64,000 nucleotides of DNA from Cyclonatronum proteinivorum. Lineage in GTDB: Bacteria; Bacteroidota; Rhodothermia; Balneolales; Cyclonatronaceae. Position 1 is the stretch's first letter, and each line of letters starts with the position of its first letter. Below the pieces are notes generated by a model. It ran no database searches. It was not told the origin of the DNA and worked only from the letters and a program-made list of their open reading frames with translations. The DNA lies in NCBI RefSeq assembly GCF_003353065.1, contig NZ_CP027806.1, forward strand, positions 2,810,501 through 2,874,500, read 5' to 3'. The translations under genes were made by a program, and so were the position numbers. Shown piece by piece: positions 28,657 to 41,167 of this stretch.

Positions 28657-29847
28657 ATGCAACAGCTGTTTGAAAAATCCATCCAAAAAATCCGGCGGAC
28701 CAGTCTTCAATTCAAGCGCAGCCTGATTGATGAAATCGACTGGTCAGCACGGCTTATAGGAATCAAAGGGCCGCGCGGTGTCGGAAAAACGACGCTGATG
28801 TTGCAGTATATGCGCGAGAATCTTCCGCTAAATGATCAATGCCTGTATGTAAGTCTGGATTCGGCCTGGTTTGCACGGCATGAACTCAGCGGATTCATTG
28901 ATGATTTTGTGAAGGCCGGGGGACGCTACCTTTTCCTCGATGAAGTTCACAAATACCCCGGCTGGTCTACAGCCCTGAAAAATGCCTGGGATGATTATCC
29001 GGATTTAAAAATAGTTTTTTCCGGATCTTCCCTGTTGGAAATTGTAAATGCCCGGGCCGATCTCTCCCGCAGAGCTCTGGTTTACACCTTACCCGGTCTT
29101 AGCTTCCGGGAATATCTTGCGCTTAAATCAGGCATTACGTTACCAGCACACGATCTCTCTGACATCCTTGAAAACCATGTTGCGCTTTCGTCAGAAATCA
29201 CCGCTGAAGTTCGTCCGCTGCCGCTGTTCCGGGCGTATCTGAAGCAAAGGTTTTATCCCTTCTTTTTAGAATCACCGGACACCTACCTGTGGCGGCTTGA
29301 AGAAGTCGTAAACTATATTTTGGAAGCGGAACTCCCTGCACTTCGTAACATTGACATAACTTATGTGCCCCGAATAAAAAAACTCATGCAGATCATTGCA
29401 GAATCCGTGCCTTTCACCCCCAATGTTACGCAACTGAGCGGCCGTATTGGCATTAACCGAAACACCCTCATTTCATACTTTCACTATCTGGAAGAAGCTT
29501 CGATCATTCAAAATTTGTACAAAGATTCCGCCGGCCTTACGAAAATGCAGAAGCCCGTTAAAATCCTGATGGAGAATACCAATCTCATGCATGCGATAGC
29601 GCCTCACAAAGTAAACGCGGGCGCTGAGCGCGAAACATTCTTCGTAAATCAGCTAAAAATGAATCACACGGTGGAATACAGTGATATTGGTGATTTTCGA
29701 ATTGATCAGCATTATTATTTTGAGATAGGCGGCAAAAATAAAACAGGAAAACAACTTCAGGGACAAGCCGGCTGGGTCGCTGCCGATACCATCGAGACCG
29801 GTTTCAAAAACATCATCCCCCTCTGGCTTCTGGGGTTTTTGAAGTAG
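28657..29847 (+). CDS. AAA ATPase with DUF4143 domain
   Basis: Cytosolic P-loop ATPase of 396 residues. Walker A is GPRGVGKTT at residues ~38-46, Walker B is YLFLDEVHKY at ~93-102, and FSGSSLLEI carries the sensor position. The C-terminal ~150 residues form the DUF4143 winged-helix/nuclease-like region (RIGINRNTLISYFHYLEEA, ending in the FEIGGKNKTGKQL segment with a possible E-x-K-type core). The family is common in archaea and Bacteroidota, often strain-variable and suspected of mobile-element or toxin-like roles, but its function is not established. It is a lone gene under the twin palindromes and followed by a strong hairpin. Confidence 0.85.
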   Translation: MQQLFEKSIQKIRRTSLQFKRSLIDEIDWSARLIGIKGPRGVGKTTLMLQYMRENLPLNDQCLYVSLDSAWFARHELSGFIDDFVKAGGRYLFLDEVHKYPGWSTALKNAWDDYPDLKIVFSGSSLLEIVNARADLSRRALVYTLPGLSFREYLALKSGITLPAHDLSDILENHVALSSEITAEVRPLPLFRAYLKQRFYPFFLESPDTYLWRLEEVVNYILEAELPALRNIDITYVPRIKKLMQIIAESVPFTPNVTQLSGRIGINRNTLISYFHYLEEASIIQNLYKDSAGLTKMQKPVKILMENTNLMHAIAPHKVNAGAERETFFVNQLKMNHTVEYSDIGDFRIDQHYYFEIGGKNKTGKQLQGQAGWVAADTIETGFKNIIPLWLLGFLK

Positions 29848-29862
29848 CCCGCATTATTCACC

Positions 29863-29966
29863 AAGAAATTTTCTTGCTGGCAAGGCGAAGATGAAAACTC
29901 AGCGGAAGGGTACCTAAGTACCCTGAGCATGAGTTTTCATCTTCAACGCCGCCAGCGGGGAAATTT
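29863..29966. repeat. Large nested hairpin downstream of the ATPase gene
   Basis: Perfect 15-bp arms GAAGATGAAAACTCA (29887-29901) and TGAGTTTTCATCTTC (29930-29944). An inner perfect stem GGGTAC-CTAA-GTACCC lies at the tip. Outer segments GCTGGC/GCCAGC and AAATTT on each side extend the fold. It begins shortly after the ATPase stop. No T-run follows, so it is not a standard terminator; a transcript-end structure or a repeat-family member are possibilities. Confidence 0.6.
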
Positions 29967-30159
29967 CGCAGTCTTTACACCACACTCAAATTTGGGCTAC
30001 CGGTGTATTTAGCTAAGCCAATTTTAAACTGATACTTATAAAATAAATTCTTTTAATAGTGAATAATGCGGGGTAGATAAATTCTGCCGCACCTTTTTCC
30101 CGTTTGTCCTATATTCCTGCAAACAAACCCGTCATTTGAATACCTATCATCAAGTAAAT

Positions 30160-31491
30160 ATGCCCATAACCTACGTAAAGCTAAACGACTTTGTAAGCCT
30201 GCTCGACCCGGCAGCCAACATCATCCTGAACATGAGCGCGGAAGAAGCGGAAGAGATTGTCCGCAGCGGCAATCCCGCGAAGGTGCGCTCGATTGAAGGC
30301 TCATTTGCGATTGTCACCAAAAATGGCATGGAAGTCACGATGGCGCGGTCCATCAGCCGGCCCATGCGGTATTTCATGGCCAAACAGGTCGACGGGCCGC
30401 TCCTCATTGTGGCCGAGCGCATTGACGAAATCTACGAATACCTGAAAAGCCTCGGGCTACATCATCAGTTTAATCCGGCCTACACGCGCATGGTGCCGGC
30501 GCACTATGTGGTGAAGCTTCAGGTTGTGGGCTGTCCCGACCCGAATCCGGATTACACCCGTTATTTTGTACCTGAACGCGAAACCCTGCCCGCGGACCTC
30601 GACGAAATCGGGCGGGCCTATGTCGGGGCGATGGCCAACGAGTGTCAGAAATGGCTGCAATCCATTGATGAAAAAGAGCCAATCGGCGTGCTGTTTTCCG
30701 GCGGCATTGACAGCGGCTCCGTCTTTCTGGTGCTGTATCACACCATGCTGAAGCTCGGCATGTCACCGGCCCGGCTCAAGGCCTTCACGCTTTCTGTGGA
30801 AAACGGTCCGGACGCGCGGCAGGCCCGCTCTTTCCTGAAGGCGCTCGATCTCGAACTCTTCCACGAAGTGCTGGAAGGCACCCTTGCCGACCTCGACTAT
30901 AAGGCGGCCATCCGCGTGATTGAAGACTACAAGCTGCGCGATGTTGAAGCGGCGACGACAACGCTCGCGCTCTGCAAACTCCTGCGTGCGCGCTACCCCG
31001 ACTGGAAATACCTTGCCGACGGCGACGGGGGCGATGAAAATCTCAAAGCCTACCCGATTGAAGAAAATCCGGAGCTCACCATTCGCAGCGTGCTCGGCAA
31101 TACCGTGTTGTACCATGAAGGCTGGGGCGTGGATAAAATCAAGCACTCGCTCACCTACTCCGGCGGACAAAGCCGCGGCGCGGTCCGCACCTGGGCGCCG
31201 GCACGGCATTTCGGATTCACCGGTTTCAGCCCGTATGCGCTGCCCGATGTGATTCAGGTCTCGGAAGGGATCCCCTTCATCGCGCTTACCAACTGGGAGC
31301 ACGACCGCTTGTATCAGCTCAAGGGCGAAATCGTGCGCCGTGGCGTGAAGGAAATTACAGGAATCGACATGCCGGTCAATCCCAAGCGGCGCATGCAGGA
31401 AGGCACAGTGGGCAGCGATAAGTTCGCGGATGTTTTCGCGGACAACGAGATGACCTACCGCCTCTACTTTCAGTCGCTTTATGCCAAATAA
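30160..31491 (+). CDS. Asparagine-synthase-like ATP-pyrophosphatase lacking the glutaminase nucleophile
   Basis: Cytosolic 443-residue protein of the asparagine synthase B superfamily. I start at the ATG at 30160 (MPITYVKLNDF) rather than the in-frame TTG at 30136. The N-terminal ~160 residues resemble a class II glutamine amidotransferase fold (SIEGSFAIVTKNGMEV, ISRPMRYFM) but have no Cys at position 2, so glutamine hydrolysis is unlikely. The PP-loop SGGIDS is at residues 180-185, with YLADGDGGDENLKAYP downstream as in AsnB. Relatives without the nucleophile include beta-lactam synthetase and lasso-peptide cyclase McjC, which adenylate a carboxylate to make an amide. It overlaps the radical SAM gene by 11 bases, so the pair is probably one pathway. 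Confidence 0.85.
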   Translation: MPITYVKLNDFVSLLDPAANIILNMSAEEAEEIVRSGNPAKVRSIEGSFAIVTKNGMEVTMARSISRPMRYFMAKQVDGPLLIVAERIDEIYEYLKSLGLHHQFNPAYTRMVPAHYVVKLQVVGCPDPNPDYTRYFVPERETLPADLDEIGRAYVGAMANECQKWLQSIDEKEPIGVLFSGGIDSGSVFLVLYHTMLKLGMSPARLKAFTLSVENGPDARQARSFLKALDLELFHEVLEGTLADLDYKAAIRVIEDYKLRDVEAATTTLALCKLLRARYPDWKYLADGDGGDENLKAYPIEENPELTIRSVLGNTVLYHEGWGVDKIKHSLTYSGGQSRGAVRTWAPARHFGFTGFSPYALPDVIQVSEGIPFIALTNWEHDRLYQLKGEIVRRGVKEITGIDMPVNPKRRMQEGTVGSDKFADVFADNEMTYRLYFQSLYAK

Positions 31492-32401
31492 CCGCGAAAT
31501 TGTAGCGGCACGGCCGGAAAAGGTCAGCGGACTCGACCCTTTCCGGCCGTATCATTTTCTGCACGAGCAAGAGCCCGGTCCCGACGGGAAGCTGCGTCGG
31601 GTCAACACCATTTTCCTGACCAACCGGGAGTGCCCGTTCAAGTGCGTTTTTTGCGACCTTTGGAAGCACACCCTCGACAGTCCGACGCCCGTTGGCGCCA
31701 TCCCCGCACAAATCCGGTACGCGCTTGAACGCCTGCCGCAGGCGGATGTCCTGAAGCTGTACAACAACGGCAATTTTTTCGACCTCAAAGCCATCCCCCG
31801 AAAAGACTACCCCGAAATCGCGCAGCTTTGCGAAGGCTACGAGCGGGTCATCACCGAGAACCATCCCAAAATTGGCGGGCCGCAGGTTGAGGAATTCCGG
31901 GATATGATCAGCGGTGAGCTTGAGATCGCGATTGGGATTGAGAGCATACATCCCGAAGTACTGCCGCGGCTGAATAAGCAAATCACGATGCAAGACCTCG
32001 CGCAGACGGCAGCTCGTTTCCGGGAAGCCGGCATTGCGTTACGCGGCTTCATCCTCCTGAATCCGCCCTACCTCACCAATCCGGATGAAATCCGGCGATC
32101 CTGTCTCGATACCATCCACTTTGCATTCGACAGCGGATTTGAGACCGTCAGTATCATCCCCGTGCGCACAGGCAACGGCTACATGGAGCGGCTGCAGGAC
32201 GCCGGCGATTACGTGCCGCCGGATTTGCGCATGCTGGAAGACGTCATGACCGAAGCTCTCAGCTGGAAGCGCGGTCGGGTATTCGCGGATTTGTGGGATG
32301 TGGAACTCTTCTGGAAAGAGAAGGAGGAAGGCTTTAAAGACTGGCAGGCCCGAATGGAAGAGCTAAACCTCACGCAGCATGTCGGTGCGCAGAAGGGTTG
32401 A
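31481..32401 (+). CDS. Radical SAM enzyme (RaSEA/MiaB-like clade)
   Basis: The 306-residue radical SAM protein carries a CX3CX2C cluster motif, Cys51-Cys55-Cys58 in RECPFKCVFCDLW. KLYNNGNFFDLKAIP, VITENHPKIGG and ELEIAIGIESIHPEVL follow the strand order of the core barrel. The CDLW motif and the N(N/S)GNFFD block resemble the archaeosine-synthase radical SAM (RaSEA) and related bacterial enzymes. No TRAM or SPASM domain is visible, so the substrate is open. Its ATG lies inside the last codons of the asparagine-synthase-like gene, indicating translational coupling. Confidence 0.85.
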   Translation: MPNNREIVAARPEKVSGLDPFRPYHFLHEQEPGPDGKLRRVNTIFLTNRECPFKCVFCDLWKHTLDSPTPVGAIPAQIRYALERLPQADVLKLYNNGNFFDLKAIPRKDYPEIAQLCEGYERVITENHPKIGGPQVEEFRDMISGELEIAIGIESIHPEVLPRLNKQITMQDLAQTAARFREAGIALRGFILLNPPYLTNPDEIRRSCLDTIHFAFDSGFETVSIIPVRTGNGYMERLQDAGDYVPPDLRMLEDVMTEALSWKRGRVFADLWDVELFWKEKEEGFKDWQARMEELNLTQHVGAQKG

Positions 32402-32558
32402 ATAATGAAAAGAAAGTGCCCGAATAAATAACAGCTATCATTTCAGGAATAAATTTAACAAATCCGCATACCGGCTTTCACCATATTCCGTCATCAAAAT
32501 AAACAATAACAAGATGGCATTAGCCTACTGATTTCATACAGTTTGCACAACGAGACGG

Positions 32559-34097
32559 ATGAGAAGAAAAAAACAGCTATTCGAAAACATTCCGGCACAT
32601 GCCGGCATTGTGGTGGCGGGCGCCGGGTTTGGCGGATCGCTTCTTTCCATTATTCTTAAACAACAGGGTCACGATGTACTGTTGCTTGAGCGAAGCACAC
32701 ATCCCCGTTTTACCATTGGCGAGAGTTCAACGCCCATAGCCGATATGATTCTGCGCGATCTGGCGCAGACCTATGGACTTGAATGGCTTACGCCCCTGAG
32801 CCGCTACGGAAGCTGGAAAGAAAGCTATCCGGAACTCAGGGTTGGGTTGAAACGCGGATTCAGCTACTATTTTCATGAACCGGATAAACCCTTTTCGGAC
32901 GACACGCGCCATGCGCGAAGCTTGCTCGTTGCCGCAAGCAACAGCGATGAATCTTCAGACACACAGTGGTACCGCCCCGATTTCGACGCCTTTCTGGTAC
33001 AAAAGGCCGTAGAAGAAGGTGTCGCCTATTACGATCAGACCGAAATTACGCGGGTGCTCGACAACGGCCCCGGTCACCCGTGGTATCTCAGCCTCCGGAG
33101 CGGAAAACGCACGCACGAGCTGTCGGCAGATTTTATCATTGACGCCACCGGCGCCGATCAGCTTTCACGCTTGCTGGGCGTGAAGCCCGCTGACTATGCC
33201 TTCCATACAAGCTCAGCGGCGGTATTTTCGCACGTCACCAATGTCCCCGAGTGGCACAGCTACCTGCAGGAACAGGGCATATCCGGAACGGACACCTACC
33301 CCTTTCACCCTGACCATGCCGCGCTTCATCACCTGATTGATGAAGGCTGGCTGTGGATGTTGCGCTTTTCCGACGGCCTCCTCAGCGCCGGATTTATGCT
33401 CAGCTGGGAAGATCAGAAACAGCTCGTCCGGAAATCAAACCACAAGCTGGTACAGCACCTGTTCCAGCAATACCCCTCCCTGAACGCCCTGTTTGATGGG
33501 GCGGAAATTGCACAGCTGCCCGGAAAATGGCTCAAAACCAAACCCCTGCAGCGCATGTCCCAAAACGCCGCAGGGTCCGGATTTGCCCTGTTGCCGCACT
33601 CGGCAGGCTTTGTTGACCCCATGCACAGTACCGGCATTGCCATCACGCTGTGTGCCATTGAAAAGCTTGCCCTTCTGTTCCGGGAAGCAAAGCCGGGAGA
33701 AACCGTTAACAGCTACGCCCTCGACGCCTACAGTATCAGCATTATGCGTGAGCTGCAGCTGATTGATGTGCTGGTTGCCGGTTGCTACAAAACCCGGCGG
33801 AATCCGGATCTGTTTGAAGCCTGGCTCAGCTGTTACTTCACCTGTTCCATCAGCTACGAACAAGCACGGCTGAAAGGCGAGCGGCCGGCCTCCTTCCTCA
33901 ACGCGATGGAACAGCCGGTCAGCAGTATGATTTATGAAGCCTGGGAACATTTGCTGCAGCTGGAAAAAGAAGGCTTTCCCGACGCCGCTTGTCACGCCTT
34001 TATTGAAGCCATGCGCCGCCGGATTCAACCCTGGAACATCGCCGGACTCCTCACGCCCAATCAAAAAATGTACGCCCATACGGCGGTCGATTTATAA
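32559..34097 (+). CDS. Flavoprotein related to tryptophan halogenases, motif altered
   Basis: FAD-dependent enzyme of 512 residues. The Rossmann motif VVAGAGFGGSLLSIILKQ begins at residue ~18, and GESSTPIADMILRDL and PHSAGFVDPMHSTGIA correspond to conserved blocks of flavin halogenases and related monooxygenases. The diagnostic WxWxIP motif is replaced by GWLWMLRFSDG. A basic residue sits in LKRGFSYYFHEP near where the catalytic Lys is expected. It is therefore better described as a halogenase-like oxidoreductase than a proven halogenase. It lies 157 bases after the radical SAM gene on the same strand and may belong to the same biosynthetic cluster. Confidence 0.8.
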   Translation: MRRKKQLFENIPAHAGIVVAGAGFGGSLLSIILKQQGHDVLLLERSTHPRFTIGESSTPIADMILRDLAQTYGLEWLTPLSRYGSWKESYPELRVGLKRGFSYYFHEPDKPFSDDTRHARSLLVAASNSDESSDTQWYRPDFDAFLVQKAVEEGVAYYDQTEITRVLDNGPGHPWYLSLRSGKRTHELSADFIIDATGADQLSRLLGVKPADYAFHTSSAAVFSHVTNVPEWHSYLQEQGISGTDTYPFHPDHAALHHLIDEGWLWMLRFSDGLLSAGFMLSWEDQKQLVRKSNHKLVQHLFQQYPSLNALFDGAEIAQLPGKWLKTKPLQRMSQNAAGSGFALLPHSAGFVDPMHSTGIAITLCAIEKLALLFREAKPGETVNSYALDAYSISIMRELQLIDVLVAGCYKTRRNPDLFEAWLSCYFTCSISYEQARLKGERPASFLNAMEQPVSSMIYEAWEHLLQLEKEGFPDAACHAFIEAMRRRIQPWNIAGLLTPNQKMYAHTAVDL

Positions 34098-34228: not shown

Positions 34229-35887
34229 ATGAAAAAAACGGCTCTCTTCCTCACCGCTTTATGGATGGCTGCGCTCATTCCCGCCGCGGGCGCACAGCAC
34301 CTCAGCGAAGCCCTTGAAACCCACATCACCCGCATGATGTCGTACGAACAAATTCCCGGTCTCGCCCTCGCCGTCCACGAAGCCGACGGTTCGGTTTGGT
34401 TCCAGAATTTCGGGCAAATGGGCCTTGATGATGAGCGCCCCGTTACCGAGCACAGCCTGTTCGAAATCGGCTCCGTCACCAAAACCTTTACCGGCTCGCT
34501 GTTTTTGCTCCTCATGGAAGCGCACGGCTTCGACGGGGAAACCTCCGTCAACAGCTTGCTCGAAGGAAGCGGACTTCAGCTGCCCGATCAGGAAAGCGCG
34601 CCCATCACCCTGAATCACCTGATGACCCACACCAGCGGTCTGCCGCGTCTGCCCGGCAACATGACGCCCGCCGACGACCGCGATCCCTACAAAGATTACA
34701 GCACCGAACAGCTCAAAGCCTACGCCGCGGCCGTTCAGCCGCAGCGCGCCCCCGGAGAAGACTGGGAGTACTCCAACTTCACATTCATGGTCCTTGGCTT
34801 TCTTGCCGCTTACCTCGAAAACCGCGATTTCGATCAGCTCATCCGTGAGCACCTCACAGAACCGCTGGGCATGACCCGCACGCTGCGGGAAGTACCCGAA
34901 GCCCTTCAGCCCGATGTGGCAGGCGGCAGCATGTTCGGGGCCTATGCGCCAGCCTGGCACTTCGACGAACTCCGCGGACTCGGCGAGCTCCGCAGCACAA
35001 GCGCCGATCTCATCCGCTATCTCGAAGCCCATCTCGGCACAGACAGCTTCGCCCGAAGTGCCGCCCTGCAGGCCGGACATCAGCCCCGCTACAGCCTGTC
35101 CGACGAGCTGCACATGGGCTTCAGCTGGTTCATTCGCGATCTTAATGAAAACGCCGGTCGCCTCATCTATCACGGCGGCGGAACCGGCGGATTTCGCTCA
35201 GCCATAGCTTTCGACCCTGCAAGCGGTCGCGCGGCAGTTGCCCTCACCAACTCAAATTCCGATGTGCAAGACCTGGCCCTGCACCTTGCCAACCCCGCCG
35301 CACCGCTTCGCGAACTCCCCGAAGACGGCGCCCTTCCCGAAGCCCTGATCGCACAGCTCTCCGGCCTCTACCAAAACCCAAACCTGCCCGTCTTTGAGCT
35401 CTTCGGTCAAAACGGCCGCCTCATGGGGCAGATGGACGGTCAGCCGGCCCTGCCGCTCGAACAGGTCGAAGGCCTCAGCTTCCGGAATCAAGCCGTCGGC
35501 GCCCGCATGGAATTCGAAGCCTCCGGTCAGGAGCCCGCCACCGGCTTTGTGCTGCATCAGGGCGGCATGCAATTCCCTTTTGAACGCATCACCGAGCGCC
35601 CCACCGGACCCGTAGCGATAGCGCTAAGCCCCGAAGTCCTCGCCGAATACGCCGGCACCTACCACGCCGGCGGCGGCCTCAGCTTTCAGATCGAAGCCGC
35701 GGAAGGCCACCTCTCCGCACGCCTCACCGGACAGCCCGCCGCCAAAGTACTCCCCGAAGGCAACGACCGCTTCTTCTACGAAGTCGTACCCGCCGCGCTG
35801 CAGTTCGAACGAAACGACGAAGGCCGCATCACAGCCGTAACCCTCCTGCAGCACGGTCAGGAAATCCGCTTCCAACGCGAACCCTGA
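34229..35887 (+). CDS. Exported serine beta-lactamase-like hydrolase (S12 family)
   Basis: Periplasmic 552-residue serine hydrolase of the class C beta-lactamase/DD-peptidase superfamily. A Sec signal peptide MKKTALFLTALWMAALIPAAGA is followed by the catalytic domain, residues ~30-350. It carries SVTK (Ser-x-x-Lys nucleophile and base), the YSN tyrosine motif in WEYSNFTFMVLG, and HGGGTGGF in place of the KTG box. The C-terminal ~200 residues form two small beta domains with APYAGTY-like repeats (EVLAEYAGTYHAGG). Relatives include esterases and D-aminopeptidases, so antibiotic resistance should not be assumed. It stands alone and is followed by repeats. Confidence 0.88.
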   Translation: MKKTALFLTALWMAALIPAAGAQHLSEALETHITRMMSYEQIPGLALAVHEADGSVWFQNFGQMGLDDERPVTEHSLFEIGSVTKTFTGSLFLLLMEAHGFDGETSVNSLLEGSGLQLPDQESAPITLNHLMTHTSGLPRLPGNMTPADDRDPYKDYSTEQLKAYAAAVQPQRAPGEDWEYSNFTFMVLGFLAAYLENRDFDQLIREHLTEPLGMTRTLREVPEALQPDVAGGSMFGAYAPAWHFDELRGLGELRSTSADLIRYLEAHLGTDSFARSAALQAGHQPRYSLSDELHMGFSWFIRDLNENAGRLIYHGGGTGGFRSAIAFDPASGRAAVALTNSNSDVQDLALHLANPAAPLRELPEDGALPEALIAQLSGLYQNPNLPVFELFGQNGRLMGQMDGQPALPLEQVEGLSFRNQAVGARMEFEASGQEPATGFVLHQGGMQFPFERITERPTGPVAIALSPEVLAEYAGTYHAGGGLSFQIEAAEGHLSARLTGQPAAKVLPEGNDRFFYEVVPAALQFERNDEGRITAVTLLQHGQEIRFQREP

Positions 35888-36858: not shown

Positions 36859-38532
36859 ATGCCAACACTTAACTGGATCGGTAAAGAGAAAGTAATTAAT
36901 CATCACCGGGATGTGCCGTTTCGGGTTTTAAATCATAAATACGGCTTTACTGCAGAAAAAGGCGAAACTAATAAGCCGACCAATAGTGGCAATAAAATTA
37001 TTCACGGGGATAATCTTGAGGCACTAAAATCCCTTTTGCCAGAGTACGAAGGCCAAGTGAAGTGTATCTATATTGACCCACCATACAATACAGGTAATGA
37101 AGGTTGGGTATATAATGATAATGTCAGTCACCCTAAACTCAAAAAATGGCTTGGGGAAGTTGTCGGTAAAGAAGGTGATGACCTAAGCAGACATGACAAA
37201 TGGCTTTGCATGATGTATCCAAGACTTCAGATCCTAAAAAGATTACTTTCTATAGATGGTTTGATTTTTATATCAATTGATGACAATGAATACCAAAGTT
37301 TGAAATTTCTATGTGACGAAATATTCGGAAGACAAAATTTTATCACAAACTTTTCTTGGCGGACAGATGGGAACTTTGATAATCAAGCGAAAATCAAGAT
37401 AAACCATGAATATATTTTGTGCTTTGCAAAAAAAATAAGTCAATTTGAACACCCTCGTATCGTAGATCCAAATATTGACCCATCGAGCAAACTTTTTAGG
37501 AGAGTAATTAGGAATACGATCGTCAAAAATGGACCCAAAAACCCTGTTAGCTCTATAAACTTACCCATAGGGTTTCCCGCTGAATTTGAATCAGGTGTTC
37601 TTGAACCCCGGAATGATGCTTGGCCCAAATTTGATGAACCGTTAAAAATTTCTGGATATAAATTAGAAGAGCCAGTATCAGTCTCAAGCGGATGGAGTTC
37701 GAAGAAACTTTTAGAGTCTTTTATTCATGCTAAGTTCAAGCCAGTTTTAGATACAAAGCAACAACTTACACGTTTTGTGATTACTAATTCCGGTGCCATT
37801 GAAGCATTAAAAGACAGGGAGCAGCCAAGCCATGTGGTAAGCTCTTTAAAAAATATGGGTAGCACACAAAATATGAGCTCCGATTTAAAAAAAATGGGTA
37901 TTAATTTTGATTACCCTAAGCCTAACTCGCTGTTAGAATACCTCTTAAGCATTCATCACACTAAAGATCACTATGTACTTGACTCGTTCGCAGGATCAGG
38001 TACAACTGCCCACGCAGTACTAAATCTTAACAAAAAGGATGGTGGTAACCGAAAGTTTATACTTATCGAAATGGAGGATTATGCAGAAAAAATAACGGCC
38101 AAAAGAATAAAAAAAGTTATTATAGGGTATGGAGACGGTAAAAATGAAGTCGAAGGCACAGGCGGAAGCTTTGATTATTACGAATTAGGCGAGCCTCTTT
38201 TTATTGGAGAAAATGCTGAATATCTGAATGAAAAAGTAGGCGCAGAAAAAATACGGTCATATATCTGGTTTAGTGAAACGCGCACTCCTTATCAGGCTCA
38301 TAACCAACAGTCTGAAACCGATTATTTCCTTGGGGCGCATGAGCAAACAGCCTACTACTTTTATTATCTTCCTCAGGAGATCACGACGCTTGACCATGAT
38401 TTCCTTGCTTCCGTTAAAACCAAGGCAGAACAATATGTCATTTATGCTGACAACTGTTTGCTCTCGAAAGAATACTTGAGTTCGAACAATATCATTTTCA
38501 AAAAAATCCCGCGTGATATAAACCGATTCTGA
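36859..38532 (+). CDS. mod: Type III restriction-modification system methyltransferase (Mod)
   Basis: Site-specific DNA adenine methyltransferase of the beta class, 557 residues. The catalytic motif DPPYNTG is at residues 73-79, and the SAM-binding motif FAGSGTTAHAV at ~377-387, in the order expected for type III Mod subunits. The opening KIIHGDNLEALKSLLPEYEG and the HDKWLCMMYPRLQ block are typical. The central ~200 residues should be the target-recognition region. The gene is AT-rich compared with the chromosome around it, suggesting acquisition. It ends one base before the Res gene, forming a tight two-gene operon. Confidence 0.95.
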   Translation: MPTLNWIGKEKVINHHRDVPFRVLNHKYGFTAEKGETNKPTNSGNKIIHGDNLEALKSLLPEYEGQVKCIYIDPPYNTGNEGWVYNDNVSHPKLKKWLGEVVGKEGDDLSRHDKWLCMMYPRLQILKRLLSIDGLIFISIDDNEYQSLKFLCDEIFGRQNFITNFSWRTDGNFDNQAKIKINHEYILCFAKKISQFEHPRIVDPNIDPSSKLFRRVIRNTIVKNGPKNPVSSINLPIGFPAEFESGVLEPRNDAWPKFDEPLKISGYKLEEPVSVSSGWSSKKLLESFIHAKFKPVLDTKQQLTRFVITNSGAIEALKDREQPSHVVSSLKNMGSTQNMSSDLKKMGINFDYPKPNSLLEYLLSIHHTKDHYVLDSFAGSGTTAHAVLNLNKKDGGNRKFILIEMEDYAEKITAKRIKKVIIGYGDGKNEVEGTGGSFDYYELGEPLFIGENAEYLNEKVGAEKIRSYIWFSETRTPYQAHNQQSETDYFLGAHEQTAYYFYYLPQEITTLDHDFLASVKTKAEQYVIYADNCLLSKEYLSSNNIIFKKIPRDINRF

Positions 38533-38533
38533 T

Positions 38534-41167
38534 ATGGAACTGAAAAATTACCAGCATAAAGTAATTGAAGACCTTGAAGATTTTTTAGAATATCTCCGGG
38601 AGTATCAAACTCCTGAAACGGCTTTCAATCAATATTGGGAAGACCGGATTGGTCCGTACAACCCCATTGCTGGTATCGGGATGGAACCCTATAAGCAAAC
38701 CATTCCTAAAGCCGCTCATGTTTGTATTAAAGTCCCCACCGCAGGCGGCAAGACTTTTATTGCCTGCCATGCGCTTCATTCAATATTTAATGCTACCGGA
38801 GACAGCCTGCCCAAAGCTGTTATTTGGCTTGTGCCATGGAGCAACCTGCTTGACCAAACAGTTCACAGCCTGAGCAATCCCGATCATCCTTACAGGAAAA
38901 AGCTGAACGCGCTGTTTAATCACAGGGTAGAGGTTTATACTAAAGAAGATCTCTTGCAGGGCAGCAACTTTAATCCGACCGTTGTTCAGGATCAGCTCTC
39001 AATCATCGTAATGAGCTTTGCCAGCCTTCGGGCCAGAAAAAAAGAGGATCGGAAAGTATATCAGGAGAATGGGCAGTTAGCTGCATTCGCGAATCAGTAT
39101 TCAGACGCTAAACATCTGCTTCACGAAACGGACGAAACGGCACTCATAAATGTCATTCGAAGTCTTAACCCTGTTTTAGTTGTAGATGAAAGTCACAATG
39201 CGGAGAGTACGCTAAGTGTTGATATGCTTGGTAATCTGAATCCATCTTTTATACTCGATCTTACGGCTACGCCCAAAATAAACAGCAACATTGTTAGTCT
39301 TGTCCCTGCCATTGAGCTCAAAAAAGAGCACATGGTTAAATTGCCCGTAATTGTTTACAACCATCAGGATAAAACAGATGTGATTAACAGCGCATTGCAC
39401 CTGCAGCGTAAACTTGAGCTTTTAGCCATTGAAGAGCGCAAAAAAGGAGGCAAATACATTCGACCAATTGTTCTGTTTCAGGCGCAGCCTAAAACCAAAG
39501 ACGATAACACAACTTTTGAAAAGCTCAAGCGGCAACTGTTAAACGTAGGGATTCCTGAAGAGCAGATTAAAATAAAAACAGCAAATATTGATGAGCTAAA
39601 GGACGTCAGTTTGTCGGATGAATCTTGCCCTGTAAGATATATCATAACGATCAACGCACTTAAGGAAGGCTGGGATTGCCCCTTTGCCTATGTGCTGGCT
39701 TCGTTAGCCGACAAATCATCCGCTGTTGATGTAGAGCAAATCCTTGGTCGTGTTTTAAGGCAGCCTTATGTAATGAGACATTCAGCTTCATTGCTCAATG
39801 TCTCATACGTATTGACCGCTTCGGCCAAATTTAATGATACGCTGCAAAACATTGTTGAAGGACTTCAAGCCTCTGGTTTCAGTGAAAAGGATTACAGAAA
39901 AAAAGATGTGATGTCCGAAGCGTCCAAAAAGGAGGCTATTGTTGATCCTATGACCATAGAGCTTTTCCCTGAACAAGTACAGGAACATGAGGAGGAAGAA
40001 ATTGACAGTGAACGGATTTCGTATAATGAAACCGAACACGAAATCGGTGCAGAAGACCCTGCTATAGCAGACATTACCAGCCTTGCTGAACAGCAAAGCA
40101 AGGAAATGGAATCGGAAATCGAGCGGCAGAAAAGCAAACCAATTGATGAACACCAATTTATGGAAATGGGTGATAAGGTGAAGCGCTATAAATTAATTGA
40201 AGCATACAGTACCATAGCCAAAGAAATTGAACTGCCTCAGTTTTTTATTGAAACCCCAAAAGGTGATATTTTCGGTGCAGGAGAAGCCTTTTTAAATCAA
40301 GAGCTTCTCTTAAAAGGTTTTAAACTTGCAAGTGAAGATACGAAGATCGATTTCGAAGAAAACGCCAAAGACCTGTACAAAGTTGACATTCATAAGCAGG
40401 GTGATGAAGACTATTCACCCCGCTTTGAGAAAATCGCAAATTATTCTGTAAAGGATGACATCGTAGAATATATTCTTGCTAAGCCCAAAGAAAGTCAGAT
40501 AAAAGACATAGCTTACCGTTTAGTAAATGCTGTTGGGAATATGTACCCCATATCCGATCATGAAATCAGACTATATATTGAAAGAATTATTGCAAGTTTT
40601 AGTGCTGAGCAGTTTAGAAGTATATTAACGAGCTACTTCAGGTACGCAACCAAAATAAAAGAGAAGGTAAAATCGCTTGCAGACGCATACGCCGAACAGC
40701 AGTTTAATGAGCTGTTAACCATTGGCAAAGTATCAGCCAAACCGACCTGGAAATTCCCGGAAGCTATAGTACCAGGTCCGGTAGGCTCATCGATTAGTAA
40801 GTCCCTTTATGAACGTGAAGGGATAATGAATGACTTCGAAACTTCAGTTATCTCAGATATTTCGAGCTTACCTAATATAACTTTCTGGCACAGAAACCTT
40901 GGTAGAGGAAAAGGATTTTCAATAAACGGATTTAAATCCAGGCATTACCCTGATTTCATATTGCACACCAGGAATGGAAACATCATCATACTTGAAACCA
41001 AAGGAGATGACAGAGACAACCCTGACAGCGCCTCAAAAAGAAGGCTTGGAGAAAAATGGGCTAATCTCTCAGGTGTAAACTACTACTACTTTATGGTCTA
41101 TAATAAAATCTCCCCCGAAGGTGCATTTAACCGGGTAAAAGCAAGAGAACTGATTTCGAGATTGTAA
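38534..41167 (+). CDS. res: Type III restriction-modification system restriction subunit (Res)
   Basis: The 877-residue ATP-dependent endonuclease subunit. Superfamily 2 helicase motifs are visible: Walker A TAGGKT at residues 69-74, DESHN at 218-222, DLTATPK, and the late motif EQILGRVLRQPY. The C-terminal nuclease is PD-(D/E)XK type: HYPDFI with Asp807, then IILETKG with Glu821 and Lys823. All key residues are present, so the system looks functional. It acts with Mod, whose gene ends immediately upstream, to cut unmodified DNA carrying two oppositely oriented sites. A charged insertion (~residues 470-545) is rich in Glu. Confidence 0.95.
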   Translation: MELKNYQHKVIEDLEDFLEYLREYQTPETAFNQYWEDRIGPYNPIAGIGMEPYKQTIPKAAHVCIKVPTAGGKTFIACHALHSIFNATGDSLPKAVIWLVPWSNLLDQTVHSLSNPDHPYRKKLNALFNHRVEVYTKEDLLQGSNFNPTVVQDQLSIIVMSFASLRARKKEDRKVYQENGQLAAFANQYSDAKHLLHETDETALINVIRSLNPVLVVDESHNAESTLSVDMLGNLNPSFILDLTATPKINSNIVSLVPAIELKKEHMVKLPVIVYNHQDKTDVINSALHLQRKLELLAIEERKKGGKYIRPIVLFQAQPKTKDDNTTFEKLKRQLLNVGIPEEQIKIKTANIDELKDVSLSDESCPVRYIITINALKEGWDCPFAYVLASLADKSSAVDVEQILGRVLRQPYVMRHSASLLNVSYVLTASAKFNDTLQNIVEGLQASGFSEKDYRKKDVMSEASKKEAIVDPMTIELFPEQVQEHEEEEIDSERISYNETEHEIGAEDPAIADITSLAEQQSKEMESEIERQKSKPIDEHQFMEMGDKVKRYKLIEAYSTIAKEIELPQFFIETPKGDIFGAGEAFLNQELLLKGFKLASEDTKIDFEENAKDLYKVDIHKQGDEDYSPRFEKIANYSVKDDIVEYILAKPKESQIKDIAYRLVNAVGNMYPISDHEIRLYIERIIASFSAEQFRSILTSYFRYATKIKEKVKSLADAYAEQQFNELLTIGKVSAKPTWKFPEAIVPGPVGSSISKSLYEREGIMNDFETSVISDISSLPNITFWHRNLGRGKGFSINGFKSRHYPDFILHTRNGNIIILETKGDDRDNPDSASKRRLGEKWANLSGVNYYYFMVYNKISPEGAFNRVKARELISRL

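Follow-up and report, generated by a model that had tools for sequence, protein, structure and literature searches.

A conserved three-gene unit encoding an AsnB-like ligase, a radical SAM enzyme and a halogenase homologue in Cyclonatronum proteinivorum very probably forms a small undescribed pathway

The window analysed in this study is a stretch of 64,000 nucleotides of Cyclonatronum proteinivorum, located within a single-contig genome of 4.29 Mb. At positions 30160-34097, it carries on the plus strand, in this order, the genes for an AsnB-like ligase, a RaSEA-like radical S-adenosylmethionine (SAM) enzyme (rSAM), and a PltM-like homologue of flavin adenine dinucleotide (FAD)-dependent halogenases (flavoprotein), together referred to as the triad. 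With hardly any doubt, the triad behaves as a single unit in how it is inherited and arranged, and its near-constant co-occurrence across several phyla makes it very probable that it encodes a single small pathway, so far undescribed. The enzyme families themselves are already known; no description of the triad was found in the open-access literature, most subscription journals being outside this coverage. An earlier note, made from the sequence alone, had listed the region as a candidate biosynthetic cluster for a modified small molecule or nucleoside. A conserved three-gene unit combining amide, radical, and flavin chemistry was indeed recovered, but classical cluster families were missing from the 25 listed for its neighbourhood, and a nucleoside or halogenated small molecule is a possible product at most, so that the interpretation in the note was partly supported.

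The co-occurrence of the three genes is far beyond chance. Each protein was used to search 394 genomes of the phylum. Full-length ligase orthologues were found in 23 of them (E ≤ 8.2e-169), the 15 weaker matches (E 1.3e-8 or worse) among the 38 genomes matching at 0.001 being left out of the count. The rSAM orthologue was present in exactly those 23 genomes (E ≤ 8.8e-70; next genome, 2.5e-11); here 82 genomes matched at 0.001, and 59 weaker matches (E 2.5e-11 or worse) were left out. At 1e-20, the flavoprotein was detected in 22 of the 394 genomes, all within the same 23, in one case (G119) on a separate contig, close to the contig start. A scan of named genomes yielded 78 loci, mostly belonging, according to record titles, to Bacteroidota (including Balneolales), Planctomycetota, Verrucomicrobiota, and Acidobacteriota, with one gammaproteobacterial metagenome-assembled genome; strains with the triad include Thermoflavifilum thermophilum, Mucilaginibacter lappiensis, Dyadobacter luticola, and Rhodopirellula rubra. 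For 48 loci, 4.5 kb or more of downstream sequence was available; in this set, tblastn revealed the rSAM in 41 and all three genes in 39, including the rSAM of L050 and both the rSAM and the flavoprotein of L097, which clustering alone had missed (39 and 37 loci, respectively). In the 11 genomes with split loci (7 loci without an adjacent rSAM and 4 with less room), all 11 encoded the rSAM at another site, and 10 of the 11 also encoded the flavoprotein away from the ligase. Order and strand were identical in 48/48 loci where all three genes cluster together. A lack of co-occurrence in other genomes, which by the earlier note would have refuted its reading, was not seen. When the families were compared two by two, their evolutionary distances over 47 members gave correlations of r 0.91, 0.92, and 0.91, to which shared ancestry contributes. 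When all gene families of the 78 loci were clustered, only these three proved general (found in 75, 59, and 52 loci), and the most frequent of the others reached 16-17. Three unrelated genes held together by a mobile cassette, as the patchy spread over phyla might suggest, is a barely credible explanation, largely refuted by the split loci, in which the genes co-occur even when apart in the genome. Searches for annotated plasmid copies of the triad and for defence systems with PADLOC gave no match.

The ligase gene (30160..31491, plus strand) encodes 443 amino acids from its ATG and was assigned from Pfam, alignment, and a structure model as an N-terminally shortened AsnB-like ligase without the glutaminase nucleophile. 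An in-frame TTG lies upstream at 30136, and most homologues align from the ATG at 30160. The protein matched the Pfam family PF00733 (Asn_synthase) with an E value of 7.6e-12 and scored 39.3 bits against the NCBIfam equivalog TIGR01536 (AsnB), below the cut-off of 267.1. The mean column identity of 48 ligase homologues (alignment A1) was 69%, and the planctomycete members were 57-63% identical to the window protein. Across 72 aligned family members, the PP-loop ATP site (SGGIDSG at 30697..30717, plus strand) read SGGIDSG in 68, SGGVDSG in 3, and SAGVDSG in 1 (SGGxDS in 71/72), and the GDGGDEN motif was kept along with it. Cys2 was found in none of the 72 members at mechanically chosen starts. 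The structure model (predicted local distance difference test score, pLDDT, 84.3) showed the two-domain AsnB fold, with beta-lactam synthetase as the best match (Z 25.5, 374 aligned residues, root-mean-square deviation (rmsd) 3.5), tied with human asparagine synthetase (Z 24.9) and E. coli AsnB (Z 24.7). The matches to beta-lactam and asparagine synthetases start near template residue 37-40; the absence of Cys2 pointed out in the earlier note thus held, and according to the model, the nucleophile segment is missing altogether rather than point-mutated. Therefore, the natural inference is an amide-forming enzyme that does not use glutamine. Beta-lactam and carbapenam synthetases, which share the AsnB fold, form an amide without a working glutaminase. 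The triad ligase differs from beta-lactam synthetase in its low identity (18%) and missing N-terminal segment, and no beta-lactam pathway family was among the 25 families listed for the triad neighbours.

The ligase stop and the rSAM start overlap by 11 bases (31481..31491, plus strand), as had been noted before. The rSAM (31481..32401, plus strand, 306 amino acids) matched the Pfam family Radical_SAM (E 3.6e-8), and its best NCBIfam was RaSEA (TIGR01210, E 8.8e-22; runner-up family, 4e-5), which agrees with the earlier assignment as RaSEA-like, although the score of 77.7 bits (77.1 bits in the genome-wide search) remained below the cut-off of 212.15; in the same genome search, 3 of the 14 control genomes scored above this threshold. 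The CxxxCxxC motif for the [4Fe-4S] cluster (31631..31654, plus strand) was kept in 60/60 family members. A C-terminal CxxC was present in 56/60 members and absent from the window protein, from its genus relatives L031 and L087, and from L078, so it is dispensable here. The structure model (pLDDT 94.9) was closest among solved folds to queuine lyase (QueL; 6p78, Z 17.5, rmsd 3.5, 218 aligned residues, 16% identity), followed by HydE (Z 16.4), biotin synthase (16.3), and Elp3 (16.1); the absence of a family from the fold-match lists is no proof of anything. A sequence search for solved rSAM homologues found none. To our knowledge, queuine lyase has no ligase or halogenase partner.

The pairing of a ligation partner with a RaSEA-family rSAM resembles the archaeosine pathway of Euryarchaea, in which, according to PMC11298593, ArcS adds lysine and RaSEA, its complex partner, converts the adduct. 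In contrast to that system, the triad ligase is AsnB-like and not ArcS, the host is bacterial, and the flavoprotein is nearly always present. The window's genome gave a single match to archaeosine transglycosylase, at 127 bits against a cut-off of 350; with the rSAM also under the RaSEA cut-off, archaeosine synthesis was rejected, and the possibility that the first two genes belong to a known tRNA-modification pathway, raised in the earlier note, did not materialize. A wider form of this idea is a nucleobase or tRNA modification akin to 7-deazaguanine, in which a carboxy-deazaguanine or an acid attached to tRNA would be the substrate of the ligase, with cleavage by the rSAM in the manner of RaSEA or queuine lyase. 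It draws on the closest rSAM relatives by profile and fold, which act on deazaguanines, and on how well the ligase is conserved from one phylum to another (the planctomycete members of A1 being 57-63% identical to the window protein). We consider it very unlikely in view of the patchy presence (23/394 genomes) and the transglycosylase score under the cut-off; moreover, we know of no role for halogenase homologues in known tRNA modification.

The flavoprotein (32559..34097, plus strand, 512 amino acids) matched the Pfam family Trp_halogenase (PF04820) over the gathering score (E 6.9e-14), and its best solved relatives were PltM (E 1.9e-34) and tetracycline halogenase. The GxKRGF motif was found in 51/51 family members, and its K98 (32850..32852, plus strand) aligns with the catalytic lysine of PltM. 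The aligned residue of the PltM chain was taken as K87 by counting with a 20-residue tag; according to PMC6424973, the K87A mutant is inactive, and a mutagenesis primer given there fits the same PltM stretch. The GxGxxG flavin site fitted in the listed strings (50/51 members) except one ending in A. The FxxPxxSxG motif (33609..33635, plus strand) was kept in 49/50 members among the listed strings, including the window protein, one having A for P. In place of the halogenase motif WxWxIP, the window protein reads WLWMLRF, within a GWxWxLRF stretch (33345..33368, plus strand) shared by all 12 commonest strings listed (43/51 members); L and F are conserved in at least 97% and R in at least 85% of the family. 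The halogenase motifs and altered WxWxIP reported earlier were therefore recovered, the alteration being, as judged from the family alignment, a family-wide WxWxLRF signature with the catalytic lysine and FxxPxxSxG retained. PltM and tetracycline 7-halogenase share the family, the aligned lysine, and FxxPxxSxG with the triad flavoproteins but not the WxWxLRF signature, and no polyketide family was among the neighbour families listed. On these motifs, the flavoprotein likely halogenates; it may hydroxylate instead.

The neighbourhood was surveyed with 100 of the 147 listed neighbouring proteins, from 28 loci. The leading Pfam families were FG-GAP (12) and UnbV_ASPIC (9), followed by TPR and sugar-handling families, and none of the 25 families listed belonged to polyketide, peptide synthetase, or ribosomally synthesized and post-translationally modified peptide systems; this is not the neighbourhood of a classical biosynthetic cluster. 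RES toxin and Xre antitoxin domains were each found in 3 of the 100 proteins. Nucleophile-free AsnB-fold cyclases, radical SAM enzymes, and peptide halogenases are all known from ribosomal peptide pathways, and the triad might similarly mature such a peptide. Macrolactam closure would then fall to the ligase, acting as a lasso cyclase does, and decoration of the macrolactam to the rSAM and flavoprotein, with the precursor gene unlinked. This was judged highly improbable, as neither a peptidase nor a peptide-recognition family was among those 25, and as no conserved precursor-like small open reading frame (ORF), the check proposed in the earlier note, was found around 48 triad loci (1865 small ORFs compared, in a set that included the close relative L087 and omitted the window's own flanks). 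The 15 listed small-ORF families (6-12 loci each) were out-of-frame overlaps of a downstream large gene, c4, or an upstream FGGY kinase gene, and a linked precursor peptide was therefore rejected, although an unlinked one may exist. MibH and ChlH are named as peptide halogenases in PMC12715798. The ammosamide pathway, as described in that paper, also brings together an AsnB-like putative amidating enzyme (Amm20) and an FAD halogenase (Amm3); unlike the triad, it is peptide-derived and has a long cluster, and its rSAM-like Amm10 is without the cysteine motif.

Next to the triad, several loci encode c3, which is an FG-GAP/ASPIC protein, the large protein c4 of TPR-FG-GAP-ASPIC type, and c8, which is a membrane protein resembling RnfD. 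Relatives of c3, c4, and c8 (49%, 28%, and 47% identity) lie together in the window's genome at approximately 3.050-3.056 Mb, 206 kb away from the triad, and adjoin SusC/SusD genes. The RnfD-like gene was present in 15/23 triad genomes versus 4/371 others in the phylum (Fisher 3.5e-18) and, at the genus level, in 8/11 versus 2/159 (Fisher 4.9e-10); the count left out 4 weak of 23 matches (E 6.5e-26 to 3.3e-11), none of them in a triad genome, and the Fisher values are overstated because relatives share history. These figures, together with the head position of FG-GAP and UnbV_ASPIC among the neighbour families and the presence of the same module in the window's genome, would fit a role of the triad in the synthesis or repair of an aromatic, redox-active ligand or cofactor of FG-GAP/ASPIC beta-propeller and RnfD-like envelope proteins, the flavoprotein perhaps hydroxylating rather than halogenating. 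Such a role is unlikely, given that 8/23 triad genomes have no RnfD-like gene, that a strong copy occurs in only 3/21 triad genomes outside the phylum, that shared history inflates the association, and that the module in the window's genome sits by SusC/SusD genes. We do not count the RnfD-like gene as a fourth core gene; over some of the triad's distribution it would be a partner or mark a common setting. UnbU and UnbV are presumably enediyne-cluster proteins; the literature on them and on iodinated enediynes gave nothing usable. Four genomes (G167, G215, G223, and G282) have the RnfD-like gene and no triad. The L139-L140 region (approximately 3.037-3.060 Mb of the same genome) encodes several FG-GAP/ASPIC (UnbV) proteins in succession and contains an RnfD-like gene and SusC/SusD, as well as sugar kinase, symporter, and LacI-type genes judged from sequence reading.

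The preferred reading is an obligate three-enzyme pathway, dispersed among phyla as a small mobile operon, which would yield a small non-ribosomal, non-peptidic product by ligation, cleavage, and halogenation. By analogy with the chemistry of the families, the ligase would adenylate a carboxylate with ATP and couple an amine, probably an amino acid; an amine rather than ammonia is assumed because the ligase cannot produce ammonia from glutamine. The 5'-deoxyadenosyl radical of the rSAM would then break a C-N bond in or beside the ligase-made amide. This ligate-then-cleave order is modelled on RaSEA, which acts on the archaeosine lysine adduct, and on queuine lyase, which acts on queuine; no paper directly on the latter enzyme was found in the open-access literature. 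The flavoprotein would use FADH2, oxygen, and halide to halogenate, via Lys98, an electron-rich ring (phenol- or pyrrole-like); this halogenation, or a hydroxylation, may occur at some point of the route.

Several observations weigh against this pathway. Ligase-bearing genome G332 (390 contigs) and split-locus genome G397 had no detected flavoprotein, and L074 and L091 have the ligase and rSAM and no flavoprotein in the stretch examined. By fold, the ligase is equally close to beta-lactam synthetase and to asparagine synthetase (Z 25.5 versus 24.9), queuine lyase leads HydE by a mere 1.1 Z units, and the bond cleaved cannot be told with confidence from a radical SAM fold. As WxWxIP is replaced family-wide, halogenation has possibly been lost in favour of hydroxylation, and as no substrate gene is conserved beside the triad, the substrate would need to be a common metabolite. 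Taken as a whole, the ligate, cleave, and halogenate mechanism is tentative, with a probability of about 0.4. Its most specific form is distinctly unlikely: a pathway in several phyla whose product would be a previously unknown halogenated aromatic amide or amine and would act as a ligand or cofactor of FG-GAP/ASPIC and RnfD-like envelope proteins. In this version, the ligase and rSAM would jointly move the nitrogen of an amino acid onto a carboxylate, ligating and then cleaving a C-N bond by radical chemistry, in a context other than tRNA modification, and a WxWxLRF class of halogenase would be defined by the flavoprotein.

The triad is flanked upstream by an AAA_14/DUF4143 ATPase gene (28657-29847) and downstream by a gene for a beta-lactamase-family serine hydrolase with DUF3471 (34229-35887); the families of both were not among the 25 neighbour families listed. 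A palindromic element (GATGAAAACTCA...GGGTACctaaGTACCC...TGAGTTTTCATC) lies 5' of the ligase gene at 29880-29960; in the window, which was the sequence searched, the left half of this element has a single occurrence. Judged from their translations, two ORFs at 36859-41167 of the window may encode a type III restriction system, one resembling a Mod and the other a Res subunit.

Since no large biosynthetic genes adjoin the triad, its product type is possibly overlooked by cluster-finding programs. The pathway is compact, consisting of three enzymes with retained catalytic residues, and it is present in named strains, which makes it easy to express and test. The triad would reveal new amide and C-N chemistry and a class of halogenases whose signature motif is altered.

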